This document shows positions 8,135 through 39,617 of a stretch of DNA of 64,000 nt, piece by piece. Location of the stretch: assembly GCA_021324885.1 (NCBI GenBank), contig JAJPIF010000011.1, positions 186,001-250,000 on the forward strand. Reading direction: 5' to 3'. The DNA is from Pseudomonadota bacterium (GTDB lineage Bacteria; Desulfobacterota; Binatia; Binatales; Binataceae). Position 1 is the stretch's first letter, and each line of letters opens with the position of its first letter. The notes under the pieces were generated by a model. That model was not told where the DNA came from, did not search any database, and saw nothing but the letters and a program-made list of their open reading frames with translations. The translations under genes were made by a program, and so were the position numbers.

Positions 8135-8177
8135 GCGCATCGATCAAGACGACTCTCCCCAGGACCGCTGTGCCTGG

Positions 8178-8207: not shown

Positions 8208-8214
8208 CGTCAAA

Positions 8215-9669: not shown

Positions 9670-9801
9670 CGCAATTCACTTTACCACGCTGCCATCGTTT
9701 CACGAGACGCTCCACTCGCTTCTTTGGAAGGAATCATCCGGTCATAATGAGGGCGGTCGCGACACGTTATCCGGCGAGGATAAAAAGGAGCCGACAGCAA
9801 G

Positions 9802-10986
9802 GTGCAGCAGTTTCCCGAGTTCAATCCGCAGGCCCGAATTCTGCTCGGACCGGGGCCTTCCAACGTCAGCCCGCGAGTGCTCAAGGCGATGGCGTCCCCG
9901 ATGCTGGGCCATCTGGACCCGGACTTCATTGCCCTGATGGAGGAGATCAAGAAGCTTCTCCGCACCGTTTTTCAGACCGGAAACGAAATCACCTTCCCGG
10001 TTTCCGGCACCGGCTCAGCCGGGATGGAATCGGCGCTCGCCAATCTCATCGAAGAAGGCGACGAGGCGGTGGTCGGCGTCAACGGCGTCTTCGGGGCACG
10101 GGCGGCGGATTGTGCCGAGCGCATGGGTGCGAAGGTCCATCGAGTCGAGGCCCCGTGGGGTCGCATAGTGGATCCGCAGGAAATCGAGGCCGCGCTTAAG
10201 GCGTGCAAACGGCCCAGGCTGGTCGCGGTTGTGCATGCGGAAACGTCCACCGGCGTGCTGCAACCGGTCGAGGAGATCTCGCAACTGGCGCATCAATACG
10301 GCGCTTTGATGGTGCTGGATGCGGTGACGTCGCTCGGATGTATTCCGGTGCATATCGATCGATGGCAAATCGACGCCTGCTACAGTTGCACGCAGAAGGG
10401 AATCAGCGCGCCGCCGGGACTGGCGCCGTTGACGTTGAGCGAGCGCGCGATGGCGGCGATTGGGGAGCGCAAAACCAAGTGCCGTTCGTGGTACCTCGAT
10501 GTCGCCATGATCGCTCAGTACTGGGGCACCGAGCGTATCTACCATCACACCGCGCCAATCAGCATGAATTACGCGTTATACGAAGCGCTGCGCATAGTCG
10601 TGGAAGAGGGACTCGAAGCGCGATGGGCGCGTCATCTGCAAAACGCCGCGGCGTTGCAGGCGGGCCTCAGCGCGATGGGCCTGAAGTTCGTCGCCCAGGA
10701 AGGCCATCGCCTCCCACAGCTCAGCGCAATCGAGGCGCCGGCGGGGATCGACGAGGCCGCCATCCGGGCCGCTTTGCTGCGCAGCTACAACATGGAAATC
10801 GGTGCCGGGCTGGGGCCGTTCAAGGGCAAAGTCTGGCGCATCGGCCTGATGGGTGAATCGTCGCGCCGCGCCAACGTCGTGCTCGTGCTCAACGCGCTGG
10901 AGCAGTTGCTGACCGACGCCGGCGTCGAGATTGCGCGGGGCCGCGCTTTGGCCGCCGCCGACGCGGTTTACGCAAAGTCAGCCTGA
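9802..10986 (+). CDS. Class V aminotransferase, serine/alanine--glyoxylate aminotransferase family
   Basis: PLP enzyme of 394 residues. LLGPGPSNVSPRVLKAM and LGHLDPDFIALMEEI are the classic AGT/SgaA opening; FPVSGTGSAGMESAL binds the cofactor phosphate; Lys199 in CTQKGISAPPG is the Schiff-base lysine. The start is GTG 9802 with AAGGAG at 9785-9790 as the likely ribosome-binding site. Members transaminate glyoxylate with serine or alanine. The divergent glcD-like gene could supply glyoxylate. The exact amino donor is not determinable. Confidence 0.9.
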   Translation: MQQFPEFNPQARILLGPGPSNVSPRVLKAMASPMLGHLDPDFIALMEEIKKLLRTVFQTGNEITFPVSGTGSAGMESALANLIEEGDEAVVGVNGVFGARAADCAERMGAKVHRVEAPWGRIVDPQEIEAALKACKRPRLVAVVHAETSTGVLQPVEEISQLAHQYGALMVLDAVTSLGCIPVHIDRWQIDACYSCTQKGISAPPGLAPLTLSERAMAAIGERKTKCRSWYLDVAMIAQYWGTERIYHHTAPISMNYALYEALRIVVEEGLEARWARHLQNAAALQAGLSAMGLKFVAQEGHRLPQLSAIEAPAGIDEAAIRAALLRSYNMEIGAGLGPFKGKVWRIGLMGESSRRANVVLVLNALEQLLTDAGVEIARGRALAAADAVYAKSA

Positions 10987-11165
10987 TGATTTTGCCGCCA
11001 GCCTCCACGGCCTGCGATGCCCGCCCGTTTGGGTGAAGTTAAAAGGCCAGCCTGGCGTGAAAGTTGACTCCTTTGGAAGCGTTGATGCCTCCTTTTGAGA
11101 ATCAGCAAATGATTGCGGGCAGGTCGTCGCTGGGCGTTTTCTTACGCCTGTTCCACAGTTCGGCA

Positions 11166-11181
11166 CTGGCACGGCTTATGC
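11166..11181 (+). promoter_or_regulatory. Candidate sigma-54 promoter
   Basis: CTGGCACG followed by GCTT and then ATGC matches the sigma-54 consensus YTGGCACGrNNNTTGC except for one base in the -12 element (ATGC for TTGC). The spacing is exact. It ends 37 bp before ATG 11219 of the small zinc-ribbon gene. No bound activator site is evident. Confidence 0.35.
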
Positions 11182-11218
11182 GCTCCGCGTGTCGGAAAAC
11201 CTGAAGAGGTGGCCTGAC

Positions 11219-11419
11219 ATGTCGAATCAAATGCTGATCTGCGATGAGTGCAGACGCCCGCTCAAGGCCCCGGATGCCACCTGGGTGCAGCCCTCTGACG
11301 TCGTCCTGCTGTGCCGCGAATGCAGCCGCACCAGCGGACCCGCGCCCGCTTCGGGCCTGATGCCTTGCGTACTCGAACTCGATGAGGATATGCATCAGGA
11401 GACGGCGGCTTCCGGATGA
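11219..11419 (+). CDS. Small zinc-ribbon-like protein, 66 aa
   Basis: Not recognised as a named family. The protein has CDECRR (residues about 8-13) and CRECSR (about 30-35), a CxxC...CxxC pair that probably binds one zinc ion, then an acidic tail rich in Glu and Asp. ATG 11219 has GAAGAGG about 10 bases upstream; GTG 11189 would add ten residues. It lies 44 bp before an LLM monooxygenase on the same strand. It could be a regulatory or chaperone microprotein. Confidence 0.6.
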   Translation: MSNQMLICDECRRPLKAPDATWVQPSDVVLLCRECSRTSGPAPASGLMPCVLELDEDMHQETAASG

Positions 11420-11463
11420 ATTGGATGGTCGATTGTCCTCAGAAATCGCGGAGTCACTGACCG

Positions 11464-12696
11464 ATGAAATTCATGTGCTTTTTCCTTCCTACCGTCCCCG
11501 GCACGCTGGAAGAGCGCAGGCGTCTGCGTCCAATCGCGCATCATAATGACCGCATCCAGCGGATGATCGAGGAAGTTATCGAACTGTCCAAAATGGCCGA
11601 AGACCTGGGCTTCGAGATGGTCGGGCTTCCCGAACATTTCCTGCACACCGAGGGGCTTGAGTTCGGCAGTGTTCCGGCCGTGTACGCATATATCGCGGCC
11701 CAGACCAAACACGTGAAGGTCGGGCCGGTTGGCTATGTGCTGCCCGGATGGAACCCGCTGCGGCTGGCGGTTACGATCTCATGGCTGGACCATCTCACCA
11801 GGGGCCGGACCTTTGTCGGATTCGCCCGCGGTTATCAGACGCGATGGCTCAACCCGATGGCGCAGAAGCTTCACGTTCAAGCCACCGGCAGCGATCAATC
11901 GGAAATCGACAGGACCAACCGGGAAGCTTTCGAAGAGGTCTTTCAGATCCTGAAGCTTGCGTGGAAGGACGAGCCATTCGCATTCAAAGGTAAATACTAC
12001 GAATATCCATATCCATACGAGGAAGGCACTCCGTGGCGCGCAGCGCCATGGACCGCGGAAGCGGGCGCGCCCGGCGAAGTCGAGAACGGCCGCGTGCGCA
12101 GGATTTCGGTGGTTCCCAAGCCCTACCAGAAGCCGCATCCGCCGTTGTTCCAGGCCTTCTCCGCCAGCGATGCGACGATTTCCTGGGCGGCGCGCAACGG
12201 CGTCATCCCGTTGACCGCCGTTCCGAAAGTACCGGAGATTTTGCGGATAGCTGAATTTTATCGCAACGAAGCGGCGGGAGCGGGGCGCAAGCTGGCGTTG
12301 GGCGAAGCCTTTGGCGTGATGCACAGTGTTTATTTCGGCCGCAACGAAGACGAAGCATACGATCTCGCCTGGAACGGCGTCATCGGGGTGGTTACGCGCC
12401 TGTTCCACAGCCATTTCGGCTATGCGGAATCGATGCGCCGTCCCGACGACGCGATCAAGTATCCACTGGGCAAAGTGACCCTGCCCCCCGCAGAGATTAC
12501 CAGGGACCGCGTGCGCGAGTCGGGCACGGTCACCGCGGGGGCGGTTCCCGATGTTCTGCGCGAAATGGATCACCTGGTCGAAACGATAAATCCCGAGTAC
12601 TTCATCTACGGCCCGGATCAGGGCTTGCTGCCGTTGGATGTTGTGCGCAATCAGCTAAGGACGTTCGGCGAGCAGATTGTAAAACGCTATCGCTAG
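11464..12696 (+). CDS. LLM class flavin-dependent oxidoreductase (410 aa)
   Basis: Bacterial-luciferase-like TIM barrel. Visible family segments: EVIELSKMAEDLGFEMVGLPEHF near residues 35-60, HVKVGPVGYVLPGWNPLRLA, SWLDHLTRGRTFVGFARGY (the LLM phosphate/flavin loop) and a C-terminal ITRDRVRESGTVTAGAVPDVL. These enzymes use reduced FMN or F420 for monooxygenation or hydride transfer. At 410 residues it is longer than F420-type members and resembles FMNH2 monooxygenases. Substrate unknown. It converges on a second LLM gene. Confidence 0.88.
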   Translation: MKFMCFFLPTVPGTLEERRRLRPIAHHNDRIQRMIEEVIELSKMAEDLGFEMVGLPEHFLHTEGLEFGSVPAVYAYIAAQTKHVKVGPVGYVLPGWNPLRLAVTISWLDHLTRGRTFVGFARGYQTRWLNPMAQKLHVQATGSDQSEIDRTNREAFEEVFQILKLAWKDEPFAFKGKYYEYPYPYEEGTPWRAAPWTAEAGAPGEVENGRVRRISVVPKPYQKPHPPLFQAFSASDATISWAARNGVIPLTAVPKVPEILRIAEFYRNEAAGAGRKLALGEAFGVMHSVYFGRNEDEAYDLAWNGVIGVVTRLFHSHFGYAESMRRPDDAIKYPLGKVTLPPAEITRDRVRESGTVTAGAVPDVLREMDHLVETINPEYFIYGPDQGLLPLDVVRNQLRTFGEQIVKRYR

Positions 12697-12766
12697 ACTT
12701 GAATCTGCCAACCAAATCCTGGCCTCCTCCGGAGAGCGCAGGGTGAAGGGGGCCTCCCGAGCACGA

Positions 12767-13966
12767 TTACTTTTTTGGCGCGTTTTCCAACGTCACGTCC
12801 GCCGGCGGCAGCGGATTGCCGGTAACCCGGTACTGCTCGTGCTGCTCGTTGGTTGTGCGGATACCCTCTTCGAGCGCCGCCAGTTGCACTTCGCGATTTT
12901 GCAGATTGAAATCGTACGCGGCGCGGCGGGTGGCAAAGCCGCCATTGAAGTGCGGCATTACGTAGCGGGCGATCAGTTCGTAACTGCGCTTGGTCTGTTC
13001 CCAGTCGGCCCAGTCGTTGGCCAGGATCAGATGCGCTCCGAACTCGCCGATTCGATGGATCCGCTCGATGTGGCGGATGGCGTCCTCGGGTGTGCCGATC
13101 GCGGCCAACCCGTTCTCCACCAGGAAATTGGCCGGATCGGTGATATTGGGCGGGACGATTGCGAAGGTGCCGGCCTCCGCCAGGTAGCGGCACCACGGTT
13201 CGAGCCCGAACTTGACGTTTTCCAACGCCTTCTCGCGCGTCTCCGCGATATGCATCAGGGAGCAGATGCGCAGACGGCTGCGGTCCACGCGATGTCCGCT
13301 TTGCGCCGCGGTTTTTTCCGCCAGGCTCCAGTTATCGAACAGCGCCTGCAAGGCCGGGTCGGAGGTCCCGCTGATCGACACCATGCCCAGGCCCCATTGA
13401 CCCGCCAGCAACCCCGCCACCGGCGTGCGCGAGGAACTGATTACCACTTCAAGATGCGGATCGCTGTAAGGCGGCAATTGCAAGCGCGCGTTGCGCAGCA
13501 CGAACCAGTCGGTTTCCTTGGTTACGACCTCGCCGCGCAGCAGCCGCATTATGACTTCGACCGACTCCGCAACTCGGCGGCGCTGGTCCACCGTCTTGAC
13601 CCCGAACATCATGGCGTCGCTGACCAGCGCGCCCGGCCCTACGCCGAGCATCGCGCGTCCCCGCGTCATGTGATCGAGCTGGGTCATCCGATCCGCCACC
13701 ATCATCGGGTTGTGGTAGGGCAGCGACACGACCCCGGTGCCCAGCTTGATATGCCGGGTGCGCTCGGCGGCGGCGGCGATAAACAGTTCGGGCGACGCGA
13801 TAATTTCGAAACCGCCCGAATGATGCTCTCCAATCCACGCTTCGTCGTAACCGAGATAGTCGAGCAGTTCGACCAGCTCCATGTCGCGCCGCAAAGTGGT
13901 GTTGACGTCCTCGATAATCGCGTGAAAGGGGGCAAGGAAAATGCCCGAGCGCAGCCGCTTTGCCAT
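12767..13966 (-). CDS. LLM class flavin-dependent monooxygenase, limonene-monooxygenase-like (399 aa)
   Basis: The segments MAKRLRSGIFLAPFHAI, DYLGYDEAWIGEHHSGG, IKLGTGVVSLPYHNPMMVADRM and LDHMTRGRAMLGVGPGAL are typical of the LimB-like branch of luciferase-type monooxygenases. ATG 13966 is chosen over an upstream open extension because it fits the family N-terminus. The gene follows an aldehyde dehydrogenase and a SnoaL-like gene on the same strand (61 bp from the former), probably as one transcript. An epoxidation or hydroxylation of a terpenoid-like substrate is plausible but unproven. Confidence 0.88.
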   Translation of the reverse strand: MAKRLRSGIFLAPFHAIIEDVNTTLRRDMELVELLDYLGYDEAWIGEHHSGGFEIIASPELFIAAAAERTRHIKLGTGVVSLPYHNPMMVADRMTQLDHMTRGRAMLGVGPGALVSDAMMFGVKTVDQRRRVAESVEVIMRLLRGEVVTKETDWFVLRNARLQLPPYSDPHLEVVISSSRTPVAGLLAGQWGLGMVSISGTSDPALQALFDNWSLAEKTAAQSGHRVDRSRLRICSLMHIAETREKALENVKFGLEPWCRYLAEAGTFAIVPPNITDPANFLVENGLAAIGTPEDAIRHIERIHRIGEFGAHLILANDWADWEQTKRSYELIARYVMPHFNGGFATRRAAYDFNLQNREVQLAALEEGIRTTNEQHEQYRVTGNPLPPADVTLENAPKK

Positions 13967-14027
13967 TGGATTCTCCGTTGGTTTCCGAGTCAGCCTGAGA
14001 CGGTATTCGCAACCGTCATTTCGTGGT

Positions 14028-15542
14028 TCAGCGTCCACCCAGCCCGAAATACACTGACTTGATTTCCGTATACTCCTCGATTCCCTGCAAGCCGCCCTCG
14101 CGCCCGATGCCCGACCCTTTGAAGCCGCCAAAGGGCAGATTGGGCAGCGTGGCGAACGTGTTGACGCCGATTTTCCCCGCGCGAAACCCCTTGGCGAAGC
14201 GCATCGCGCGGCCGATGTCGCGCGTGCAAACCATCGCCGCCAGGCCGTAACTGGTGTCGTTGGCCAGCCGCAGCGCCTCGGCCTCGTCGCGGAACGGGAT
14301 CATGGCCAGGACCGGGCCAAAGATCTCCTCGCGCGCAATGGTCATATCGTTGCGCACGTCGGCGAACAGCGTCGGGTTGATATAGTTGCCCTTGGCCAGG
14401 TCGCCGACCGACGGCCGGTCGCCGCCGACCACCAGGCGCGCGCCGGATTCGGATCCCGCCTTGATGTAACCCATGATGCGATCGAGCTGCTTCTCGTTGA
14501 TAATTGGCGCCGAGGTCGTTGCCGGATCGAACGGGTCGCCATATTTGACGTTGCGCGAAAAACCCGCAGCTTTTTCCACAATGGCATCGTAAATGGATTG
14601 CTGGACAAGGGTGCGCGTGAGACACGAACAACCCTGCCCGGACAGGCCCATCGACACGCCGCCCATTGCCGCGGCGGCGGCCATGTTCAGATCCGGAGCG
14701 TCATCGAAAATCACCTGCGGACTCTTGCCGCCCAACTCGAGAGAAACGCGTTTGATGCCCTTGCCTGAGACTTCGAGGATGTGCTCCCCGACGCGGCGGC
14801 TGCCGGTGAAATGGATCTTGTCCACCCCCGGATGGGTAATCAGCGCCTCGCCGACGGTTGGACCGGTGCCGAGTACAAGATTGAAAACGCCCCTGGGCAC
14901 GCCGGCTTCTTCCAGCAGTTCGGTCAGGCGGAAGACCGTCAGGCTGGCGTATTCGGAGGGCTTCATGACGACGGTGCATCCGGCCGCCAGCGCCGGCGCG
15001 ACTTTTTTGCAAAACAGATTAAGCGGGGCGTTCCACGGCAGGATCGCCGCGACCACGCCCACCGGGTCGCGCAGCGTCATCGCGAGCACATCATCGGCGC
15101 CGCCCGGATCCGCAAGGGTCTGGCCGCCCAGCTTGTCGATCCATCCCGCATAATGCTCGAAGGTATCGGCGAAGTATTCGGGTCCGAGCGGATAGGCCGA
15201 GTACGAGGAGGCCGGCAGCCCGTTGTCCATGGTCTGGAGGCGGTTGAGCTGGTCGCCATGGTCGCGCGCCAGCTGCGCGATGCGGTCGAGGATACGTTTG
15301 CGCTCGCGCGCCTTCATTTTCGGCCAGGGGCCTTCCTCGAAAGCCCGGCGGGCCGCCTGTACCGCGCGATCGACGTCGGCCGCGCCGGCGGTGGCGAATC
15401 GGGCCACGGTTTCATGGGTCGCAGGATGGACATGAGTCCAAATCTGCTCGGTTTGCGGCTGCATCCAGCGGCCGTCGATGTACAGGTTGAAACGATCCTT
15501 CACTCCCAGCGGCTCTCGATGTGCCAGAACGCTGAATGCCAT
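14028..15542 (-). CDS. Aldehyde dehydrogenase family protein
   Basis: NAD(P)-dependent aldehyde dehydrogenase of 504 residues. Visible motifs: PWNAPLNLFCKKVAPALAAGC, the Rossmann segment FTGSRRVGEHI, the general base Glu in SLELGGKSPQVIFDD, the catalytic Cys in SGQGCSCLTR, and EIFGPVLAMIPF followed by LPFGGFKGSGIGREGG. Sits between a SnoaL-like gene and an LLM monooxygenase in the same orientation, so it probably oxidises an aldehyde produced in the same pathway. Confidence 0.95.
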   Translation of the reverse strand: MAFSVLAHREPLGVKDRFNLYIDGRWMQPQTEQIWTHVHPATHETVARFATAGAADVDRAVQAARRAFEEGPWPKMKARERKRILDRIAQLARDHGDQLNRLQTMDNGLPASSYSAYPLGPEYFADTFEHYAGWIDKLGGQTLADPGGADDVLAMTLRDPVGVVAAILPWNAPLNLFCKKVAPALAAGCTVVMKPSEYASLTVFRLTELLEEAGVPRGVFNLVLGTGPTVGEALITHPGVDKIHFTGSRRVGEHILEVSGKGIKRVSLELGGKSPQVIFDDAPDLNMAAAAAMGGVSMGLSGQGCSCLTRTLVQQSIYDAIVEKAAGFSRNVKYGDPFDPATTSAPIINEKQLDRIMGYIKAGSESGARLVVGGDRPSVGDLAKGNYINPTLFADVRNDMTIAREEIFGPVLAMIPFRDEAEALRLANDTSYGLAAMVCTRDIGRAMRFAKGFRAGKIGVNTFATLPNLPFGGFKGSGIGREGGLQGIEEYTEIKSVYFGLGGR

Positions 15543-15581
15543 ACGGTCCTCTCATTGTTTTTAGATCGGTAAGCAACCCCA

Positions 15582-16070
15582 TCATCTCATCAGCATGGTG
15601 GCGTCGCCGGTCTCCCAGGTGCAGGTCAGCGTCCAGCGGCGAATCCTCCATCCGCCGGCCGTCCTGACCATCGTATTGCGGTAATATCCGCCGACTTCAT
15701 ACGGCGCACTGCCCGGGAATTGCGTGCCGGCGAAATGCATCGCGCGCAGGTATGCAGTGCAAACCGCTTCGTTGCCGCTGACCTCGATCAGATGATTGCC
15801 GATCATGTGATGCGTCAGCGCAAAGGCGCTCATGCCCTCGAGCAGGCGACTGACCCATTGTTCACGCCCGAGTTTCAACCCCGCGGCGAATCCGGTGCTG
15901 ACGAACGCGTCGTGCAGCCTGCCCGCTGACGAGCCCTGGATCTCGACCTCGTCGGCAAAGCAGCCGCGCAGCACGGCAGCGTCGCGCGTGTCCACGCCGG
16001 TCGCATAGCGCGTCATCACTTCGGCAATGTCCAGCCGGTCGCGCAGCAATCGGAGTTCCGCTTCGTTCAT
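15582..16070 (-). CDS. SnoaL-like / NTF2-fold protein
   Basis: 162 residues. RLLRDRLDIAEVMTRYATGVDTRDAAVLRGCFADEVEI is the typical SnoaL_4 opening, an alpha+beta cone fold used by polyketide cyclases, small dehydratases, isomerases and dioxygenase beta subunits. RLLEGMSAFALTHHMIGNHLIEV and WRIRRWTLTCTWETGD complete the fold. First gene of the minus-strand SnoaL-ALDH-LLM group and divergent from hisC. It could be an isomerase, hydratase or lyase in that pathway. Confidence 0.85.
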   Translation of the reverse strand: MNEAELRLLRDRLDIAEVMTRYATGVDTRDAAVLRGCFADEVEIQGSSAGRLHDAFVSTGFAAGLKLGREQWVSRLLEGMSAFALTHHMIGNHLIEVSGNEAVCTAYLRAMHFAGTQFPGSAPYEVGGYYRNTMVRTAGGWRIRRWTLTCTWETGDATMLMR

Positions 16071-16194
16071 CGCCAGGTCTCCACGGTGTCTGACAAGTTA
16101 GTCAAACCGCGCTCAGTATGGTAGCGCTCGTTGGCGTTGCGGCCTGCCTTCTCCCACGTGCCCGGGTGTGGCAAAGTCGCGGTAAGAGTCCGCG

Positions 16195-17298
16195 ATGGAG
16201 CCGTTACGTTCAATGTTCCGCGATGCGATTGTGGCGATGGCGCCTTATGTGCCGGGAGAGCAGCCCAAACCCGGCGAGCGCCTGATCAAACTCAATACCA
16301 ATGAGAATCCCTATCCGCCGTCGCCGCGGGTACGGGCCGCGATAATCAAGGCGATCGAGGGCGACAAGCTGCGGCTGTATCCGCGCCCGATGGCCGATGA
16401 GTTTATCGAGGCGGCCTCGCAGTACTACCGCTTTCCGAAGGAGATGATACTGGCTGGCAACGGGTCGGACGAATTGCTCGCGATGCTGTTTCGGGCGGCG
16501 CTCGATCCCGGAGATCCGGTTGCCTATCCGGTGCCAACCTATTCGCTTTACGACACCCTGGCATCGGTGGAAAACGCACGCATCGTGGCAATCCAAATGA
16601 GCCGCGATTTTGCTTTTCCGGCCGCGGAGCTGGCGCGCGCCGCCGCGCGGCTCACGATCGTGTGCAATCCCAATTCGCCGACCGGCACCGCCGTATCGAG
16701 CGCGGCGCTGGCTGATTTGGCCCGGCGCCTGATGCCGCGGCTGCTCGCGATCGACGAGGCTTACGTCGATTTTGCCGATCGCCATTCGCTGGCCCTGGTC
16801 AGGAAGCATCCCAATGTCCTGGTCCTGCGCACGCTTTCGAAGTCCTATTCGTTGGCCGGGATGCGCCTGGGGCTGTGCTTTGCGCAACCGCCGATTATCG
16901 AGCAATTGCTCAAGGTGAAGGACTCCTACAATCTCAATCGCGTTTCGCAAGCGGCAGGAGCAGCAGCGCTGCGCCATTCACAGTGGGCGGAGCGCAACGC
17001 CAATCGAATCCGCCGCACGCGCCGCGATACCAGCCAGGCGCTGCGCGCGATCGGATTCGAGGTGCCGCCTTCTTCGGCCAATTTCGTGCTGGCCCGGCTT
17101 GCGGGTCACGATCTCTCCGAACTCGCCGCGCAACTGCGCCGCGAAGGTATCCTGGTGCGCTATTTTGCAACCCCGCTGCTTTACGACTGCCTGCGAATTT
17201 CGATCGGCAAGCCGGCCGAGATGAAACTTCTGCTGCGCCATCTCAAAAGACTCGTCCCGCCCATCCTTGCCAGCAGCAATGGCAAGGCGCCAACCTGA
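16195..17298 (+). CDS. hisC: Histidinol-phosphate aminotransferase
   Basis: Class I/II PLP aminotransferase, 367 residues, the usual HisC length. KLNTNENPYPPSPRVRAAI is the HisC hallmark; AGNGSDELLAMLFRA, NPNSPTGTAV, AIDEAYVDFA, the Schiff-base Lys216 in RTLSKSYSLAGMRLG, and LRISIGKPAEM follow. It catalyses the transamination of imidazole acetol phosphate in histidine synthesis. It stands alone, without other his genes, inside a catabolic region. Confidence 0.95.
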   Translation: MEPLRSMFRDAIVAMAPYVPGEQPKPGERLIKLNTNENPYPPSPRVRAAIIKAIEGDKLRLYPRPMADEFIEAASQYYRFPKEMILAGNGSDELLAMLFRAALDPGDPVAYPVPTYSLYDTLASVENARIVAIQMSRDFAFPAAELARAAARLTIVCNPNSPTGTAVSSAALADLARRLMPRLLAIDEAYVDFADRHSLALVRKHPNVLVLRTLSKSYSLAGMRLGLCFAQPPIIEQLLKVKDSYNLNRVSQAAGAAALRHSQWAERNANRIRRTRRDTSQALRAIGFEVPPSSANFVLARLAGHDLSELAAQLRREGILVRYFATPLLYDCLRISIGKPAEMKLLLRHLKRLVPPILASSNGKAPT

Positions 17299-17365
17299 TC
17301 GACGAAGTTGTTTGCCGTCGGGACTGCAGGGAACGGCGGTTCCACTGGCCGAATTACTTAGTTAG

Positions 17366-18157
17366 TTAACTGTCGAAAAAGGCCATGCGGTGCCCCGCGG
17401 TCCAGCCGCCGTCGACCACCAGGGTATGGCCGGTGATGAAACTGGCGTCGTCGCTGCACAGGAACAACGCCGCCCGCGCGATCTCCTCGGGCTGCGCCTG
17501 GCGCTTGATCAGGCTGTGAGTCATCGCCAGCTGTCCCATCTTCACCAGTTGCTCGGGCGCAATACGATTGACGATCTCTTTGGCGATATTGGTCTGAACG
17601 CCGCCTGGACAGATGCAATTGGCGCGGATGTTGTAGTGCGCGTAATCCATCGCGATCGACTTCATCAGATTTATGACACCGGCTTTGGCCGCGCCGTAAT
17701 GAGGCTCGCCGTTATGCCCCTCCAGGCCGGCAATCGATCCGGTCGCCAGAATGACGCCGCCGTGCTTCATCAACTCGGCCAGGGCGTACTTGCAGCCTAA
17801 AAACACGCCCTTGAGATTGATTGACAGCATCCGGTCCCATTCCTCTTCGCTCATGCTGTGGACCTGGGCGGGAAAGAAGATGCCGGCGTTGTTGTAGATG
17901 ATGTCGAGACGGCCGAAGCGCCTGACCGTTTCGGCCACCATCGCTTCGGCGTCGCGCGCCCTGGACACGTCGGCCTTAAAGGCGAAAGCCTGTCCGCCCT
18001 TGGCGCCGATCTCAGCTACGGCACCATTGGCGCCGTCCTGGTCAACGTCGACAACCGCGACTTTGGCGCCTTCCTGCGCGAATAAAATCGCGGTTGCCCG
18101 GCCGATGCCGGAGCCTGCGCCGGTGATCAGCGCAACTTTCCCATCCAGCTTGCCCAT
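17366..18157 (-). CDS. SDR family NAD(P)-dependent oxidoreductase
   Basis: Classical short-chain dehydrogenase of 263 residues. LITGAGSGIGRATA is the TGxxxGxG cofactor motif; NNAGI, the Ser of ATGSIAG, Tyr/Lys of HYGAAKAGV and CPGGVQT make up the catalytic and structural motifs. ATG 18157 is preferred over an upstream in-frame extension that does not fit the family. It lies downstream of the P450 gene on the same strand, so it may oxidise the alcohol made by the P450. Confidence 0.93.
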   Translation of the reverse strand: MGKLDGKVALITGAGSGIGRATAILFAQEGAKVAVVDVDQDGANGAVAEIGAKGGQAFAFKADVSRARDAEAMVAETVRRFGRLDIIYNNAGIFFPAQVHSMSEEEWDRMLSINLKGVFLGCKYALAELMKHGGVILATGSIAGLEGHNGEPHYGAAKAGVINLMKSIAMDYAHYNIRANCICPGGVQTNIAKEIVNRIAPEQLVKMGQLAMTHSLIKRQAQPEEIARAALFLCSDDASFITGHTLVVDGGWTAGHRMAFFDS

Positions 18158-18310
18158 GAGTTCTGCGAGCCTCCCCAAGGAATGACACCGAGCGCCCAAA
18201 CCCGCCTCGGCGTTTCTTGGTTACACGGGATTGATGGTTTCGGTCAATCTTGTTCAACAGGTTTTACCCGTGAGATCTGGAGTAGCGGGAGCGGACGCCT
18301 GGCCCGCCGA

Positions 18311-19522
18311 TTAATCGAGGATGAGGGGGAGGGTGGCGAGGCCGCGGCCGAAAGCATTACCGTTGTATTCAGGCGTCCAGCCGTCGGCGATGCGCACGCG
18401 CGGGAAGCGTTGCAGCACCCGTTGCAATGCCACCCGCGCCTCCACGCGTGCCGGTGCTGCCCCAACGCAGAAATGGATGCCCTCGCCAAAGCCGATGTGA
18501 TCGCTGTTGTCGCGGGTGATATCGAATTCGTCAGGATTGGCGAACTTGCGCGGATCGCGATTGGCCGCTCCAATCACGACGCATACCGGCGTGCGGGCCG
18601 GAATGTGGAGTCCCGCGATTTCCACCTCGCACGTCGTGGCCCGGAACAGCGTATGGATCGGCCCGTCATAGCGCAGCGTCTCTTCGAGCAGCGGTGCGAC
18701 CAGCGCGTGGTCGCGCTTGATCGCTGCGGCCAATTCCGGACGCCGCAGCATCTGGTAGAGCGCGCCGCTGATAAGATCTGCCGTGGTGCCGATTCCACCC
18801 GTGACCAGAACCATTACCATTCCGAACAATTCAAGGTCGTCGATCTTTTCGTGGGCTTCGTGGGCCGCTATCGCCAGGCTGATCAGGTCTTCGCCGCCAC
18901 GCTGTCCCTTGCGCGTCTGCACCAGATGACGGATAAAGTCGGCCCGCGATTCCATGAACCTGGGATCATGAAAATGGAACTCGCCGTCATTGGCGCGGCC
19001 CACGCCCAGAACCCGGATGATTTCATTTTCCGACTTCGGAATACCCAGCAGATGCCCGAAGGCGTAGGTCGGGACTTCGTGAGCGAGAAAACGCACCGCG
19101 TCAATCTCGCGCCGGCCCTGCCAGTGCTCATCGAGGATATCGTCGACCAGCTTCAGAAAAACCGGCGCCATGTTCTCCATCCGGCGCACCGCCAGCGACG
19201 GCGCCGCCACGCGCCGCAATCGCGCATGCACCGGTTCATCCACGAAGGTCATCACCGGGATCTGATTGAACGCGTCGTAAACCTCCGTGCCGGGCAGCAT
19301 CGGATTGACGCTGGAGTAGCACTGATGGTCGCGCAGCACGGCCACGCAATCGTCGTAGCGGGAAACCAGCGCCCATGGTATCTGGCGCTGGACCATGAGG
19401 GGCGGCGATTGCAGCAACGATTCGTAATAGGGGAACGGGTTGGCGCGGACTGCGGGATCGGAGAAGTCAAATTTGTACCTCAGATCGCAAGCGTCGCTCC
19501 GCTCTGAAACCTGTGTGGCCAT
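18311..19522 (-). CDS. Cytochrome P450
   Basis: Soluble bacterial P450 of 403 residues. The K-helix ExxR is present in LLEETLRYDGP, and the heme-binding loop FGEGIHFCVGAAPARVEA has Cys352 as the thiolate ligand. The I-helix reads LVTGGIGTTADL: the threonines are there, but the acidic residue that normally precedes them (GxD/E-T) is Gly. PVMTFVDEPVHARLRRVAAPS is the usual C-helix segment. No ferredoxin or reductase gene is adjacent. It lies between BVMO and SDR genes, suggesting hydroxylation of a ring or terpenoid substrate. Confidence 0.93.
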   Translation of the reverse strand: MATQVSERSDACDLRYKFDFSDPAVRANPFPYYESLLQSPPLMVQRQIPWALVSRYDDCVAVLRDHQCYSSVNPMLPGTEVYDAFNQIPVMTFVDEPVHARLRRVAAPSLAVRRMENMAPVFLKLVDDILDEHWQGRREIDAVRFLAHEVPTYAFGHLLGIPKSENEIIRVLGVGRANDGEFHFHDPRFMESRADFIRHLVQTRKGQRGGEDLISLAIAAHEAHEKIDDLELFGMVMVLVTGGIGTTADLISGALYQMLRRPELAAAIKRDHALVAPLLEETLRYDGPIHTLFRATTCEVEIAGLHIPARTPVCVVIGAANRDPRKFANPDEFDITRDNSDHIGFGEGIHFCVGAAPARVEARVALQRVLQRFPRVRIADGWTPEYNGNAFGRGLATLPLILD

Positions 19523-19626
19523 CCTTCTCCGATCCTCCGATCGCGCTGCGAATGCGCCTGATGTTCAGCCTGATCCGCCCTCTCTTCCCCGGTCAGGGCG
19601 GGAAGAACTTTATCTCGCCCGCGGAC

Positions 19627-19694
19627 GCGGACGAAGTCCGCGGCCCCGAACTGGGAGAGGCCGCCGGGCGATTTGTCTGCAAATCGCCCGGCGG
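19627..19694. repeat. Two hairpins between the BVMO and P450 genes
   Basis: A perfect 15-bp inverted repeat with a TCTG loop occupies 19661-19694 (arm CCGCCGGGCGATTTG). A 7-bp hairpin with a GAA loop lies at 19626-19642 (arm CGCGGAC). Both sit in the 180-bp gap just after the BVMO stop codon. No U-tract follows on the minus strand, so a transcript-stabilising or processing role is as likely as termination. Confidence 0.6.
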
Positions 19695-19702
19695 AGGAGG
19701 GC

Positions 19703-21463
19703 TCACTTCGTGAAGATGAAGTTCTGCTCCATCTTCTCTCTTACTTCTTCCATGTGTGTGCAGTAGCGGTTGAAACCGCCGTTGTAATTGCCGTCCTGCC
19801 GGCGATTGAACTCGCCCTCGAAATTGTAATAGCCGGGCGTGCAGTCTTGATTGCGGCTGGTCTTGCCGCGATGCTTGATCACTTCCTGTACCCACCATTC
19901 CTCGGCTTCAGGAGTGGCGTCGATCGTTTTGTAGCCATGACGGCGGGTGTAGTCGATACACGCCGCGATATGGTCGCCCTGCGCCTGGAGCATGTCGGTC
20001 AGATTGAACTGGAACGACGACTGGTAGCCGCCCATGATGAACAGGTTGGGATATCCATTGGAGTGAATCCCGACCAGCGTGCGCATCCCGTCGCGATACT
20101 TGTCGTTGAGTTCCAGTCCGCCCTTGCCCCTGATCTCATTGTAGATGCCGGTCTTCTGCACTTCGAAGCCGGTGGCGTAAATCAGCAGGTCAACTTCGTA
20201 CTGTTTGCCCTCGAACACCGGCCCCTTCTCGTTGATCTCGGTGATGCCCTTGCCGTGGGTGTCGACCAGATGCACGTTGGGGCGGTTGAAGGTCGGGAGG
20301 TAATCGTTATCGAAACATGGCCGCTTGCACATGAACATGTACCACGGTTTGAGCGATTCCGCCGTGGCCTTGTCCTTGACGATCTCCTCGATGCGGCGAT
20401 GGATCTTCATCATGTATTCGATGTTGGCGTTTTCCTGCCGGCGGATCTTCTCCTCCAGCGGCAGGCCTTCGATTTCCCCGCGCTGATCCTCCATCTTCTT
20501 GGATGCCATCCTATTGGCCAACCGCCGCTTCGCCTGCCATCCCGGCTGCAGACTGCGCGCCCACTCAGGATCGGTCGGCCAGTCGTCGCGGATGTCGATC
20601 GACGAAGGCGTGCGCTGGAACACGTACAACTCCTTGGACGCCGCGCCCAGTCCCGGAATGGCCTGGACCGCGGAGGCGCCGGTGCCGATGATACCGACTA
20701 CCTTGTCCTTCAAGCCCGAGAGGTCGGGCTTGGTGTACTCGTAGTCCCATCGCGAAGTGTGGAAGGAATGGCCTTTGAACTTCTCCATCCCATTGATTTT
20801 GGACAGCTTGGGCTTGGAGAGCGTCCCGTTGGCGCAGATCACGAACTTCGCCTTGAGATGGTCGCCGCGGTCGGTGCCGAGGTTCCACATCTGCTCCTCT
20901 TCGTTCCAGATCGTGGAGGTCACCGTGGTCTGGAAGATGGCCAGTTCGTAAAGGTTGTAGCGTCTGGCGATCAGCTGGCAGTAGGCGAAGATCTCGGGAC
21001 CGCGGGCGTAATGGCGCGAGGGCACGTACCCGGTTTCGTCCAGCAGCGGCAGGTAGTCATAAGCGACCACGTCGCACGCCGCGCCGGGATAGCGGTTCCA
21101 GTACCAGGTGCCGCCGACGTCGGCGCCGCGCTCGACGATGCGGATGCTGTCGACGCCGCATTGCCGCAGGCGCGCCGAAGTCAGCAGCGCGGAGAAGCCG
21201 CCGCCGATGAACAGGCATTCGACAGTGTCATTGATGGGGTCGCGCGGCTTGATTTCGCCGCCGTATGGATCGATTTCGTATTTGGCCAGCTCGCCGCTTA
21301 GATCGGACGTGTATTGGGCGGTGCCTTCGGGCCGGTACTTCAAGCGCAGGTCGCGCTCCTCGGCGAATTTACGCTTGATGGCGTCGTAGTACTCTTGCGG
21401 CCGCTTGGGCTTTGCCAACCAGTCGATTATTGCTGCCTGCGGCCTCTCGTCTGCATCGCTCAT
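19703..21463 (-). CDS. Baeyer-Villiger-type flavin-containing monooxygenase
   Basis: 586 residues. The FAD-binding region [15 protein letters not shown] and [18 protein letters not shown] are typical of cyclohexanone-monooxygenase relatives; [15 protein letters not shown] matches the BVMO fingerprint FxGxxxHxxxW(P/D); [14 protein letters not shown] is the NADPH-binding motif. The protein would insert oxygen into a ketone to give an ester or lactone. It belongs to a minus-strand run with LLM, P450 and SDR genes. Natural substrate unknown; 4-hydroxyacetophenone-type or cyclic ketones are possible. Confidence 0.93.
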
Positions 21464-21615
21464 CGTTTTCGACTCCGTACTTTGGTTTCCTTGGCCCCAG
21501 CGGTGGCCAGGTCGCGTGCGCCGCTTAACACCGTTGGGCGAGCCGGCGCCCCACTGAATCGGCTCCAGTATAACGTGGAACGATTGTTTAGCCTATCCAT
21601 CAGCAATTGCGCAAA

Positions 21616-22629
21616 TCACTGGAACTGCGGCATGACCTTGGTGGCGAACAGTTCGATGTGCTCGCGCATCAGCGGCATCGGGCATCCGCCTTCGTTGCCC
21701 ATGAAAAAGAACGTGTCGCAATGGTTGAATTCGATCTGCCTGCGGACGTGCTCGGCCATCTTCTCGGTTGATACCACCCTTAGCTGGCGGCTTTTTTTGA
21801 ATTCCTCGAGGTCGCGCGCGGCGGTATAGGCTGGCGGCGTGTTCCAGGTCTTCATCCATCCGGCATAGGTATTGGCCGAATGCATGCAGTAGGGCGCGAC
21901 CTCATTCCACATCCGCTCCGGATCGTTGGAGCAGAAAACCCACGCGCCGCCCCCGCCGATGATCCGGGCTTTGGCCGGATCCTTGCCCAGCCGGCGCAGC
22001 TCATCGACGTAGATCTGGTAGGTCTGCGGCGTGACGCCGACCAGCCCGTCGCCCATCCGCGCCGCCCGCTTGACGGCGTTGGGCGCATAGCCGCCGACCA
22101 TGATGGGCGGGCGCGGCTGTTGCACCGGCCGCGGCGTCAGGCGGGCGTTTTCGACCTGGAAGAATTTGCCTTTGAAATTGACCGTTTCGCCGTCCCACAG
22201 GCGGCGGATAATCTCCAGCATCTCATCGGCGCGGCGGCTGCGGTCAATCAGCCGCATCCCGTAGCCGCCAAATTCTTCAGGCCGATAGCCCAGTCCGACC
22301 GCCAATTCGTAACGTCCGCCCGAGAGAATATCGAGCACGGCCCCGTCTTCGGCCAGGCGCACCGGATGGTAAAACGGTAACAGCATGATGCTGGTGGACA
22401 GCCGCACGCGCCGGGTGCGGGCCGCGATCGCCGCCAGCAGCATCATCGGCGACGGCGCCCAGTCGTCGTTGGTGAAATGATGCTCGGTCAGAAAAATGTA
22501 GTCGTAACCCAAACCTTCGGCCCAAACCACATGCTCGATGATTTCTTCGTAAAGCCTGGTCGGGTCGCGATAGAACTGCGGCGGATTGCGAAATTCCAGG
22601 TTAATGCCGAAACGAATCTTGCCGGCCAT
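21616..22629 (-). CDS. LLM class flavin-dependent oxidoreductase (337 aa)
   Basis: Luciferase-like barrel: RFGINLEFRNPPQF, VWAEGLGYDYIFLTEHHF, TRRVRLSTSIMLLPFYHPVRLAED, LDILSGGRYELAVGLGYRPEEF and PIMVGGYAPNAVKRAARMGDG are standard for the family. It sits between the BVMO gene and a split-barrel flavin/F420-type gene, all on the minus strand. FMN or F420 may be the cofactor. Substrate unknown. Confidence 0.9.
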   Translation of the reverse strand: MAGKIRFGINLEFRNPPQFYRDPTRLYEEIIEHVVWAEGLGYDYIFLTEHHFTNDDWAPSPMMLLAAIAARTRRVRLSTSIMLLPFYHPVRLAEDGAVLDILSGGRYELAVGLGYRPEEFGGYGMRLIDRSRRADEMLEIIRRLWDGETVNFKGKFFQVENARLTPRPVQQPRPPIMVGGYAPNAVKRAARMGDGLVGVTPQTYQIYVDELRRLGKDPAKARIIGGGGAWVFCSNDPERMWNEVAPYCMHSANTYAGWMKTWNTPPAYTAARDLEEFKKSRQLRVVSTEKMAEHVRRQIEFNHCDTFFFMGNEGGCPMPLMREHIELFATKVMPQFQ

Positions 22630-22716
22630 CCTCGATGCCTCCCACGAAAAGACTGAGCGACATATAACGCGGCCATACTTTTGAGCGCCAGCGCCGGGAT
22701 CAGGTCTGCGCCCCGT

Positions 22717-23232
22717 TCAATAGGTGTCCGGCGCGAGTTTGCCGTGGTCCCAACTCGCCCATTTCTGCGGAATAAAAGAGATCGCGATTCGTTTGTGTGC
22801 CCGCTGCTTGACGAAATCAAGCAGTTGTCTCTCGGGTCGCGCTCCCAGACGCAGACTGCGTGCGGCGCCGTTTTCCCACATCGCAGTCAGGACCTCCACG
22901 ACGCGTTGCGGGTTGTCGTCCAGCTCGCAGACTCCGCGAATCATCAGACCTCTGAGCCGCCGATGCTCAAAGCCGCCCGTTTCTCCATACGGCGAGGCTT
23001 CCAAAATGACCGCTGCCTTCGGATCCCGGCGCAGATTAACTATCTTCTGTGATTTGCCATAGGTCTGAAACAGGATTCGGCCGTTTCGGTATATCCATCC
23101 CATGGATACTATGTGCGGGTATCCGCCCGGACCGTTGGTGGCCAGAAACATGGGCCACATCTCTCTCATCCCCTCATGCAGGAACGCGATTGCTTCCTGT
23201 TCTGTCATCTTAATCGCGTCGCGTTGTTTCAT
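22717..23232 (-). CDS. Pyridoxamine 5'-phosphate oxidase-like split-barrel protein (flavin or F420 binding)
   Basis: 171 residues from ATG 23232. FLHEGMREMWPMFLATNGPGGYPHIVSMGWIY, then FQTYGKSQKIVNLRRDPKAAVILE, match the PNPOx-like/F420-dependent reductase split-barrel fold. The second segment is the usual 'K..NL.RdP.v.v' phosphate-binding loop. It heads a minus-strand series with LLM, BVMO, P450 and SDR genes. It may supply reduced flavin/F420 chemistry or have an independent role. Confidence 0.78.
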   Translation of the reverse strand: MKQRDAIKMTEQEAIAFLHEGMREMWPMFLATNGPGGYPHIVSMGWIYRNGRILFQTYGKSQKIVNLRRDPKAAVILEASPYGETGGFEHRRLRGLMIRGVCELDDNPQRVVEVLTAMWENGAARSLRLGARPERQLLDFVKQRAHKRIAISFIPQKWASWDHGKLAPDTY

Positions 23233-23353
23233 CGCCTGACTCCCCGACGGACCAATGTACGCCTCGCTGTGGGCGACGCCGTTTTTCCAGCTCCGGTTGT
23301 GAGCTCTTTGCCCGCAGGTTATCTTCTCACGCTGTACGGCAACAGCAATCGGT

Positions 23354-24139
23354 ATGCGGCTGATAAGGCGAACGCTTTTATGCCTTGCACTCGCGTTAGT
23401 TATCGCGAACGTGCCTGCGGTTATGGCCACTGATTTCTATGAGCTGCAGATCTATACCGTCGACACCGCGCCTGAGGGTCAGTTGCTTGCTGAATTGCAT
23501 TCCAGTTCGGTGCTGTCGGCGACTGGGAGACAGTCGCGCTCCAATTTTCCGCTTTACCAGATCCACAATACCTTCGAACTCAGTTACGGGCTGCTGCCGT
23601 ACGTCGAAATCGGGCAATACCTGTGCACTGCCCGCCTGAATTCTCCCGGCTACCAGTACGCGGGCGCGCGTACCAAAGTGCATTTTGCGATTCCGCTGAC
23701 CGAATCATGGCCGATTGAACTGGGCGGCAATATCGAGCTCCAGTACATGCGGCGCGCTGCCGTTAGCGATCCGTTAAACCTCGAATTCATGCCGATAATC
23801 CAGGGCACGTTCGGGGGCTTTTTCTTCGCCGCCAATCCGGCGATCGAAAAGCAGTTCAGCGGCCCGGGCACTCACGCAGGTCTCAGTTTCGAACCCGCCG
23901 CGCAGCTCAGCTACCGGCTGCACGGAAGCTGGAGCTGGCTGGAACCCTCGCTGGAGTATTACGGCGAACAGGGTCCGTTCAGCGATTTCTATCCGCTGGC
24001 ACAACAACAGGAGTTCGTCGTGCCTTCCGTCAACCTGTATCTTCATCCCCGGCTTGAATTCAATTTCGGCTTCGGTTTCGGAACGACCCAGGATTGGAAG
24101 GGCCGCTTTATCAAAGGCACGATCGGCTGGCTGTTCTGA
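23354..24139 (+). CDS. Predicted secreted outer-membrane beta-barrel protein
   Basis: No named family recognised. A signal peptide is clear (MRLIRRTLLCLALALVIANVP...VMA). The mature part (about 235 residues) alternates polar and hydrophobic residues in short strands separated by turns, e.g. FELSYGLLPYVEIGQYL and LEPSLEYYGEQGPF, and it ends with the aromatic-rich strand GTIGWLF. This C-terminal Phe is the usual barrel-assembly signal. Such proteins resemble the 'transporter/MetA-pathway' barrels, but I cannot prove membership. Convergent with nth. Confidence 0.65.
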   Translation: MRLIRRTLLCLALALVIANVPAVMATDFYELQIYTVDTAPEGQLLAELHSSSVLSATGRQSRSNFPLYQIHNTFELSYGLLPYVEIGQYLCTARLNSPGYQYAGARTKVHFAIPLTESWPIELGGNIELQYMRRAAVSDPLNLEFMPIIQGTFGGFFFAANPAIEKQFSGPGTHAGLSFEPAAQLSYRLHGSWSWLEPSLEYYGEQGPFSDFYPLAQQQEFVVPSVNLYLHPRLEFNFGFGFGTTQDWKGRFIKGTIGWLF

Positions 24140-24161
24140 TTGCGTGAGCGCTCGTCCGGGG

Positions 24162-24917
24162 TCAGCGCGAGCGCGCGACGCCGATTTTCGGGCATCGCCG
24201 CTCCAACGAGCATCGCGAGCAAAACGGTGACACCGGCTGGCAGATGGTCTGACCGAACGCCACCAGCAGGCCGTTAATCTCGATCCAATGGCGGCGGGGC
24301 AGGACCTTGCGCAGCGCCTGCTCGGTCTGCTCGGGAGTCCTGGTGCGCACCAGGCCCCATCGATTGGAAATCCGATGCACATGGGTGTCGACGCAGATGC
24401 CGGGTTTGCGAAAGGCCTGCGTCACCACCAGGTTGGCGGTCTTGCGCCCCACGCCCTTAAGCGTCAGCAGGTCATCGATTCGATCCGGCACCCGTCCATC
24501 GAAGCGTTCGATCAGGTCGCGGCAGATGCCCCGGATGACGCGGGCCTTGGTGCGATAAAAGCCCACCGGATAAATGGCTTTGGCCAGTTCTTCCGCATCC
24601 ATTGTCAGGACCCGCTGCGGAGTATCGGCAATCGAGAACAGCCGCGCCGCGGCGATGGCCGTAGTCTGGTCCTTGGTGCGCAGGCTCAGGATACATCCAA
24701 TCAGCGTTTTGAACGGATCCCCGTGCTCGGCGGAAATCAGGTTGAGTACCGGCGCGTTCCAATCGGCAGCCTCGCGCCGCAGGATCTTGATCGCGGCTCC
24801 TGCCGCCCGCGCGTTGAATGGGCCCACCGTTTTTGCGCGAGGCGAGTCAGGACGGCGCAATTTGCCTGGCAAGCCAACTCTGCGAGACGCCGCAGCGATT
24901 CCATTGTCCGGTGCCAT
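24162..24917 (-). CDS. nth: Endonuclease III
   Basis: DNA glycosylase/AP lyase for oxidised pyrimidines. The helix-hairpin-helix LLTLKGVGRKTANLVV has the catalytic Lys, and Asp lies in CVDTHVHRI. The [4Fe-4S] cluster ligands follow the standard C-x6-C-x2-C-x5-C spacing in CQPVSPFCSRC...C at the end. Start at ATG 24917 gives 251 residues, with a 40-residue basic N-terminal extension ahead of the catalytic fold; a later start is possible. Divergent from the M20 gene. Confidence 0.95.
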   Translation of the reverse strand: MAPDNGIAAASRRVGLPGKLRRPDSPRAKTVGPFNARAAGAAIKILRREAADWNAPVLNLISAEHGDPFKTLIGCILSLRTKDQTTAIAAARLFSIADTPQRVLTMDAEELAKAIYPVGFYRTKARVIRGICRDLIERFDGRVPDRIDDLLTLKGVGRKTANLVVTQAFRKPGICVDTHVHRISNRWGLVRTRTPEQTEQALRKVLPRRHWIEINGLLVAFGQTICQPVSPFCSRCSLERRCPKIGVARSR

Positions 24918-25067
24918 CGAAAACTCCGGTGATGAGCTTAGCACGACGCTTCGGCGCATACTTTCCGCGCCGAAGTGTCGCTGATGCAGCGCATTGGTTG
25001 CTATTTCCAATTTGTAAGACAGCCCCGGTTCTGGATTACAATTGCGCCAGATGGGACCGGAGGCCGA

Positions 25068-26474: not shown

Positions 26475-26483
26475 GGTATTACT

Positions 26484-27665
26484 ATGCTACGCGCAGGAGT
26501 TGGATTTTCCACCGCCATCGATCCGGCGGCCGCCGCCGATGAAGCCACCACGCAGGCGCTGGCCCAGGCCGGGCTGAGAGTTGCCGACGGGGCAGTCTGT
26601 TTCGCCAGCAGCACGCATACGGCGGCATTCCGTCCCTTGATGCGGGCGGTCGCCGAACGCGCGCAGACGGCGCAGGTCGCCGGGTGCGGCGCCAGCGGCG
26701 TGATTGCCTGCGGGCGCGAGATCGAAAGCGGTCCGGCGGTCGCTGTGCTCACGGTCGGAGGCGGAATCAGCGCGCGGCGGGTCTTCGTACCGGGCCTCAA
26801 AGGCCGCGAGGCGCAGGCCGCGGTCGAAGTGGCCGAGGCGGTCCGCCCGGGATTGGACCGCGCCAATCTGCTCTGTCTGTTTCCGGATTCCTACAATATC
26901 AATCCCGAGCCGTTCCTGGAGGCGCTCGAGCGCGAACTGCCCGGCGTTACCGTCGTCGGCGGCGGCGCCAGCGAAGACGGCATGAGCGGCGAGACTTTCG
27001 CGCTGTGCGGCGACGCGGTCAGCACCAACGCGGTTTCCGGGATGCTGTTTGCCGGCGATTTCGAAATAAATGCCAGAGCTTCATTGGGATGCCGCCTGAT
27101 CGGCCGTCCGCGGCGCGTGACCGCTGTTCACAACAACATCTTGATCGAGCTGGACGGACAGCCCGCCCTGGAGGTGCTGAAACAGACTATTGGTCCGCTG
27201 GCCGGCGACCTGCGCCGCGCTGCGACGATGGTCTATCTGGCGATGGGGCTCGAGCCCCAGGCGCAGCGGCTCGAACATGGCCGTTATCTGATCCGCCATC
27301 TGATCGGTTTTGACGAGGCACGGGGTCTGATCGCTACCGTGTGCCGCCCTGACCCTGGTGATCTGGTGGGATTTGCGCTGCGCGACGAGGAAGGCGCGCG
27401 CGATGACCTGAAGCTGATGCTTGAACATATGGAGCGCGGAGTGCGCAATCCGCCGGTCTTCGGTTTGTACTTCAACTGCGTATCGCGAGGCAGCAGGCTT
27501 TACTCCATTGGCGATCACGACAGCGCTTACATCAGCCGCCATTTCCCCGGCGTGCCGATCGCGGGATTCTTTTCCGGCTTCGAGCTCGGGCCGCATGCGT
27601 CGGCGCCGCGGCTGCTGCAGTATTCGGGCGTTCTGGCGCTGGTCTCTCCGCCGACCGAGCATTGA
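26484..27665 (+). CDS. FIST domain protein (FIST_N and FIST_C)
   Basis: 393 residues covering both FIST domains. QVAGCGASGVIACGREIESGPAVAVLTV is the FIST_N core, and the C-terminal half with VFGLYFNCVSRGSRLY, ISRHFPGVPIAGFFSGFELGP is FIST_C. FIST proteins are proposed sensory modules for small ligands such as amino acids, often linked to signalling; here the protein has no kinase or receiver domain and stands alone. A short intergenic distance suggests co-transcription with the M20 peptidase, hinting that it could sense the peptide or amino acid released. Confidence 0.88.
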   Translation: MLRAGVGFSTAIDPAAAADEATTQALAQAGLRVADGAVCFASSTHTAAFRPLMRAVAERAQTAQVAGCGASGVIACGREIESGPAVAVLTVGGGISARRVFVPGLKGREAQAAVEVAEAVRPGLDRANLLCLFPDSYNINPEPFLEALERELPGVTVVGGGASEDGMSGETFALCGDAVSTNAVSGMLFAGDFEINARASLGCRLIGRPRRVTAVHNNILIELDGQPALEVLKQTIGPLAGDLRRAATMVYLAMGLEPQAQRLEHGRYLIRHLIGFDEARGLIATVCRPDPGDLVGFALRDEEGARDDLKLMLEHMERGVRNPPVFGLYFNCVSRGSRLYSIGDHDSAYISRHFPGVPIAGFFSGFELGPHASAPRLLQYSGVLALVSPPTEH

Positions 27666-29992: not shown

Positions 29993-30006
29993 GGCAGAGA
30001 GAAAAT

Positions 30007-39616: not shown

Positions 39617-39617
39617 C

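Follow-up and report, generated by a model that had tools for sequence, protein, structure and literature searches.

We examined a 64,000-nucleotide stretch of a Binataceae genome (hereafter the window; contig JAJPIF010000011.1) that carries, between positions 11464 and 23232, genes for three luciferase-like monooxygenases (LLMs), a cytochrome P450, a type I Baeyer-Villiger monooxygenase (BVMO), a short-chain dehydrogenase (SDR), an aldehyde dehydrogenase (ALDH) and a SnoaL_4 protein. A preliminary description had taken these genes as one oxidative catabolic island whose two runs could jointly degrade a terpenoid or an alicyclic ketone. The genome under study comprises 4.53 Mb in 30 contigs, and the window lies inside a contig of 345 kb. 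From comparison with two other genomes of the same genus (G025 and G026), we consider it likely that oxidative catabolic modules form a mosaic here and not a single conserved pathway island.

Genes were called by a Pfam profile scan of open reading frames (ORFs), and part of the calls were also checked with NCBIfam. The scan covered 50 of the 150 window ORFs of at least 120 amino acids. All of the genes and enzyme classes that had been named proved real and are backed by Pfam matches. LLM1 is on the plus strand (11464-12696; PF00296 Bac_luciferase, 98.7 bits) and is followed on the minus strand by LLM2, a LimB-family flavin monooxygenase (12767-13966; PF00296, 146 bits), the ALDH gene (14028-15542; PF00171 Aldedh, 538.8 bits) and the gene for the SnoaL_4 protein, which belongs to the NTF2 fold (15582-16070; PF13577, 94.4 bits). 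The plus-strand gene between the two runs is hisC, encoding histidinol-phosphate aminotransferase, as had been proposed (16195-17298; TIGR01141, 320.6 bits against a cut-off of 276.55). Beyond it, again on the minus strand, lie the genes for the SDR (17366-18157; PF13561, 232.6 bits), the P450 (18311-19522; PF00067, 103.5 bits), the BVMO (19703-21463), LLM3 (21616-22629; PF00296, 206.9 bits) and a PNPOx-like protein (22717-23232; PF01243, 42.5 bits). The last of these begins at coordinate 23232, the outer end of the right-hand run, and had gone unnamed in the title of the preliminary description. The ATG starts at 13966 (LLM2) and 18157 (SDR) were chosen by us; the mechanical ORFs start further out. 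The translations carry motifs known by name in their families, namely TGAGSGIG and YxxxK in the SDR, GQGC in the ALDH, GTGASA and an FxGxxxHxxxWD-type fingerprint in the BVMO, and the haem-binding Cys motif FGEGIHFCVG in the P450.

Only 39 bases separate the SnoaL_4 gene from the ALDH gene and 61 bases the ALDH gene from LLM2, whereas the gaps in the right-hand run measure 152-180 bases. We rejected one contiguous operon on account of these right-hand gaps, of hisC on the opposite strand and of a hairpin that follows the BVMO gene. In a consensus scan of the window, promoter-like and terminator-like sites were fewer than in shuffled sequence.

Module boundaries were evaluated by a DNA comparison of window positions 8000-27700 with the two congeners, in which the eight neighbour pairs from LLM1 to LLM3 were counted by hand. 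Two of the eight pairs were kept in G025 and one in G026. The preliminary description had itself named genes not conserved together as what would speak against its island, and this is largely what the congeners show. The genes that do stay together are LLM2 and ALDH, adjacent in both congeners (81-82% DNA identity), with the SDR gene about 1 kb further on (83%). An AraC regulator gene lies between ALDH-LLM2 and the SDR gene in both species, and the SDR orthologues beside AraC-ALDH-LLM2 are 88-89% identical as proteins. On the other side of LLM2, the congener clusters have a different P450 that is about 29% identical to the one in the window. The ALDH orthologues of the two congeners are 84-86% identical, and matches in the other 38 relatives of the order reach no more than 50% (E up to 1e-130).

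The remaining genes behave as separate pieces. LLM3 and BVMO are adjacent in G025 (C125:63160-66106) and apart in G026. An LLM1 orthologue was found in G026 away from the other island genes (C21:56062-57310, 82% DNA identity), and G025 gave partial matches only, of at most 74%. Similarly, hisC has a 72% DNA match in G026 at C33:185862, with about 112 kb between it and the LLM2-ALDH-SDR cluster, and only partial matches in G025, on contigs C61 and C6. In both congeners the PNPOx-like gene shares a stretch with the genes at 24162-27646, so we rejected it as an island member and assign it to the flanking backbone. On the left flank, divergent genes for a GlcD-type FAD oxidase and a class V aminotransferase (8215-10986) are kept together in both congeners.

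The cluster of the congeners is split in the genome under study. A search of this genome with the cluster region of G026 found LLM2-ALDH and SDR in the window, and the amidohydrolase and AraC genes of the cluster on another contig (C7). There the two genes are 355 bases apart, with no match between them to the cluster's P450, LLM2 or ALDH. No orthologue of the cluster P450 was found in this genome, where the best match was 35%. In the congeners, a thiolase-like gene lies 5-7 kb from LLM2; its 94-96% counterpart here is at 46318-47505, on the window's contig and 32 kb from LLM2. The BVMOs of the three genus genomes are about equally distant (90-92%). The arrangement common to two of the three species probably predates the other.

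Several observations weigh against the mosaic. The SDR and P450 genes are adjacent and codirectional in the window, and their products may cooperate. Contig C7 stops 887 bases beyond the AraC gene. Given the thiolase-like counterpart on the window's contig, it may have been the amidohydrolase and AraC genes that changed place. A control stretch (27700-47500) is fragmented as well; its collinear runs extend to about 6.6 kb (G025:C152) and 6.5 kb (G026:C10), so lost adjacency is no disproof of shared function. The longest collinear run in the island is 4.6 kb, from LLM2 to SDR; gene order is loose across the genus and seems somewhat looser in the island. Finally, the comparison rests on two congeners, and all of the assemblies are drafts in which a misjoin is possible, though the window lies inside its contig.

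The three LLM genes lend the locus less coherence than they might elsewhere. We counted 127 PF00296 matches in the genome, a few of them fragments, and a linkage distance of 12 kb gave 10 further clusters of at least three LLMs besides that of the window. Eleven of the 127 LLM-anchored 11-kb windows hold at least three LLMs, where random placement gives a mean of 4.6, and the grouping is thus much less beyond chance than the gene identities are. With so many matches in the genome, three LLMs within 11 kb speak only weakly for one pathway. First-look candidate numbers across 41 genomes of the order, of which up to 41 per genome were scored, ranged from 13 to 176 each, with the top values in this genus; both congeners had more than the genome under study. 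The LLM family includes LadA, SsuD, SfnG and DmoA. F420-dependent LLMs are possible, since cofD, a gene of F420 synthesis, scores above its cut-off in the genome (298.1 against 257.45 bits); LLM3 falls just under the cut-off of the F420-type subfamily TIGR03619 (163.8 against 166.9 bits). The main Binatota genome paper reports ladA, ssuD, sfnG and dmoA, and its main text contains none of the words luciferase, F420 and Baeyer (PMC8262859). Our literature search on LLM expansion found nothing on the topic.

The description of LLM2 as LimB-like held at one level and not at another. LLM2 is 44.2% identical, over 91% of the query, to an LLM on a Rhodococcus plasmid (NZ_CP054208.1, locus L189) that sits between a limonene-epoxide-hydrolase-family gene and limC. 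Closer relatives are LLMs on Streptomyces plasmids (48%), one of them adjoining a polyketide/peptide synthase, and an LLM in a genome of the same class (54%). On similarity, then, LLM2 belongs to the LimB family at the family level, and the limonene-cluster LLM is not its nearest relative. The four plasmid regions with LLM2 relatives are varied: one is lim-type, one lies beside the polyketide/peptide synthase and two are of other kinds. Two of the four also carry a flavin reductase gene near the LLM2 homologue (46-48%), a hint by analogy that LLM2 may use FMN; no flavin reductase gene was identified beside LLM2 itself, in a search limited to its neighbourhood. At an alphaproteobacterial locus (L077), two LLM2-like genes (46-48%) lie beside a 71% orthologue of the BVMO. 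Matches to LLM2 at E up to 1e-70 were found in eight of 395 sampled genomes of the phylum, including the genome under study, with up to four candidates scored per genome. ALDH was sought near LLM2 homologues at E up to 1e-12 and 40% query coverage, and no match turned up in L077, in the four plasmid regions or in six regions drawn from this and other genomes. Both LLM1 and LLM2 match 3,6-diketocamphane monooxygenase (4uwm) distantly (E 7e-15 and 9e-18, respectively), and 7bip is the best solved match for both.

The SnoaL_4 protein was considered as a limonene-epoxide hydrolase, the enzyme by whose gene a limonene 1,2-epoxide cluster is recognised, and we found this role unsupported on account of its SnoaL_4 family membership, its structure matches and its conserved residues. 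Its five matches among solved structures (E up to 1) include none named as an epoxide hydrolase. Residues Tyr22, Asp27 and His88 are identical in all nine aligned sequences, itself included, and this pattern presumably fits dehydratase-like members of the fold better than limonene-epoxide hydrolase. The protein is possibly an enzyme of the dehydratase/lyase type. Its best non-self match in the order is 44% identical (E up to 1e-20), and its AlphaFold model, built from two sequences, is poor (pLDDT 54). Because the enzyme types of the limonene route do not travel together and no epoxide hydrolase was identified, we take LLM2-ALDH-SDR as the working core.

In the BVMO, as in type I enzymes, the fingerprint FxGxxxHxxxW(P/D) is flanked by a Rossmann motif on either side; the protein falls in the PtlE/polycyclic-ketone group. 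Among solved structures its best relative is 5mq6 (entered as a pyridine nucleotide-disulfide oxidoreductase-like protein), which we take to be polycyclic ketone monooxygenase; phenylacetone and steroid monooxygenases rank behind it. It shares with the PtlE/5mq6 group a long similarity, an N-terminal extension and the fingerprint motif, but reaches only 536 bits against the cut-off of 1100 for PtlE, neopentalenolactone D synthase (NF045818), and no terpene synthase was found among the 50 scanned ORFs. We surveyed the neighbourhoods of BVMO relatives (69-91% identical) at 80 loci, many of them short and from several phyla by record title. At these loci we saw no protein at least 50% identical to the window P450, SDR, LLM3 or ALDH (E up to 1e-15, at least half of the query), although the short ones could not have revealed it. 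The recurrent neighbour families, judged from one scanned representative each, were two SDR groups (10 and 7 loci), CoA-transferase III (9), Rieske oxygenase alpha and beta subunits (8 each) and two enoyl-CoA hydratase groups (7 and 6). These neighbours point to a putative role in CoA-linked ring degradation.

Directly after the BVMO stop codon is a hairpin with a 15-bp stem (19661-19694, no strand assigned; fold z-score -5.6), one of two perfect hairpins of at least 12 bp in the window. A terminator role for it is only a guess, since the consensus scan did not list it and no T run follows. The core hairpin pattern occurs, among 200 loci, only in two that overlap the window. Behind the BVMO genes of G025 and G026 no perfect 12-bp stem was found; the folds there, computed without a shuffle control, have long stems of other sequence. 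The BVMO and P450-SDR genes may be separate transcripts. The surrounding 95 bases or so (19614-19708), which have 78-82% matches to three sites in G026, are possibly a dispersed repeat.

The P450 departs from its family in the I-helix. An acid-alcohol pair (D/E-T) is typical of this helix, and in ordinary P450s the acid takes part in proton delivery. The window P450 lacks the canonical pair: it reads GGIGTT, as do its two orthologues, while its 62% and 43% paralogues read GGISTT and GGLSTT, respectively. In our comparison, which covered the fetched loci with one further 43% match left out, 40 of 49 rows have E or D at this position; the other nine rows represent seven distinct genes. The members lacking the acid are the gene at 18311-19522 and those at loci L111, L113, L115, L116, L156, L161 and L162. 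Matches to the P450 above 39% were confined to the three genus genomes among the 41 of the order, bar one partial 41% match in G004. The orthologues in G025 (C4, 79%) and G026 (C39, 77%) lie beside an LLM-resembling gene and a gene for a protein of about 200 residues. One P450 without the acid adjoins the aminotransferase-GlcD pair in both congeners. The residues suggest that a small P450 subfamily of this genus may work differently from ordinary P450s. We think it quite doubtful, if worth stating, that these genus-own enzymes, placed near LLMs and other oxidising genes, use substrate-assisted or water-relayed oxygen activation or a chemistry other than hydroxylation, and that one of them has displaced, in the genome under study, the ordinary P450 from a LimB-like operon for terpenoid oxidation. 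Our literature search on P450 I-helices without the acid returned nothing relevant, so the novelty of the feature is not established.

Elsewhere in the window, the sole Rfam matches are RNase P RNA (44256-44600) and a tRNA gene (43345-43420), both on the plus strand.

Two other explanations of the locus were weighed. In Rhodococcus, limonene is known to pass from the epoxide through the diol and hydroxyketone to the lactone, and the enzyme classes that make up this route in Rhodococcus erythropolis DCL14 (PMC4097962) are present here, bar a proven epoxide hydrolase. The genes could thus form one functional limonene-like pathway newly assembled in this lineage, in which LLM2 would epoxidise the ring, the SnoaL_4 protein handle the epoxide or diol, the SDR produce the hydroxyketone, the BVMO insert oxygen, the lactone open by itself and the ALDH finish the sequence. 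The likeness of LLM2 to the LLM of the plasmid lim-type cluster, BVMO and SDR genes within 9 kb of LLM2, and the pairing of LLM2-like genes with the BVMO orthologue at L077 speak for this pathway. We nevertheless consider it unlikely, because the genes are not together in either congener, the relatives of LLM2 occur in settings of which just one in four is lim-type, the SnoaL_4 residues and structure matches do not favour an epoxide hydrolase, the closest solved relative of the BVMO is presumably a polycyclic ketone enzyme, and the hairpin separates BVMO from P450-SDR. Our literature search for work joining the limonene-cluster features found nothing. The plasmid cluster itself resembles the window in pairing a same-family LLM with a nearby SDR gene (limC, carveol dehydrogenase, 37% identical to the window SDR by tblastn), but the window has ALDH and SnoaL_4 genes and no identified limonene-epoxide hydrolase, and the congeners have AraC and P450 genes. 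Camphor catabolism (P450cam, a dehydrogenase and diketocamphane monooxygenases) likewise offers a P450, an alcohol dehydrogenase and enzymes that insert ring oxygen, whereas the window BVMO is of type I, no adjacent ferredoxin was found among the scanned ORFs and the set is not conserved together. The preliminary description had held the locus apart from well-known pathways for want of a nearby ferredoxin or lactone hydrolase. Neither was found among the 50 scanned ORFs, to which that search was confined, yet the argument is weak, as the first camphor lactone hydrolyses spontaneously, although a lactone hydrolase does act in a second route for limonene (PMC4097962).

At the other extreme, the genes could be unrelated neighbours, drawn from LLM, P450 and SDR families so expanded that such runs arise by chance. 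The 127 LLM matches, the 10 other LLM clusters, 15 P450 matches in the genome from a single query and the loose gene order all fit this explanation, but it leaves unexplained why LLM2-ALDH-(AraC)-SDR is kept in both congeners and why such short gaps separate SnoaL_4, ALDH and LLM2. We regard it as very improbable. A mosaic of modules retains part of what had been claimed for the two runs: a catabolic role is probable, and a link across hisC is supported by the SDR gene that lies near ALDH-LLM2 with AraC in both congeners, although the single pathway island is not.

In such a mosaic, the functional core would consist of the SnoaL_4-ALDH-LLM2 unit and the nearby SDR gene. LLM2 would oxidise an alkene or an alicyclic, terpenoid-like substrate, the SDR would then oxidise the resulting alcohol, and the ALDH would oxidise an aldehyde. 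The core of the congeners has an internal AraC regulator and its own P450 alongside; in the genome under study AraC is on another contig and another P450 stands next to the SDR. LLM3-BVMO would be a second module and the P450 a separate one, either of which may or may not serve the core, with LLM1 and hisC as putatively unrelated neighbours and the PNPOx-like gene as backbone.

These results suggest that, where the oxygenase families of a genome are heavily expanded, a tidy-looking pathway island needs a test in sister species before a pathway is drawn. What both congeners keep is a smaller unit of a P450, a LimB-family LLM, an ALDH, an AraC regulator and an SDR. The P450 subfamily without the I-helix acid is worth testing, and one module of this patchwork falls in the enzyme family with which other bacteria begin to break down limonene.

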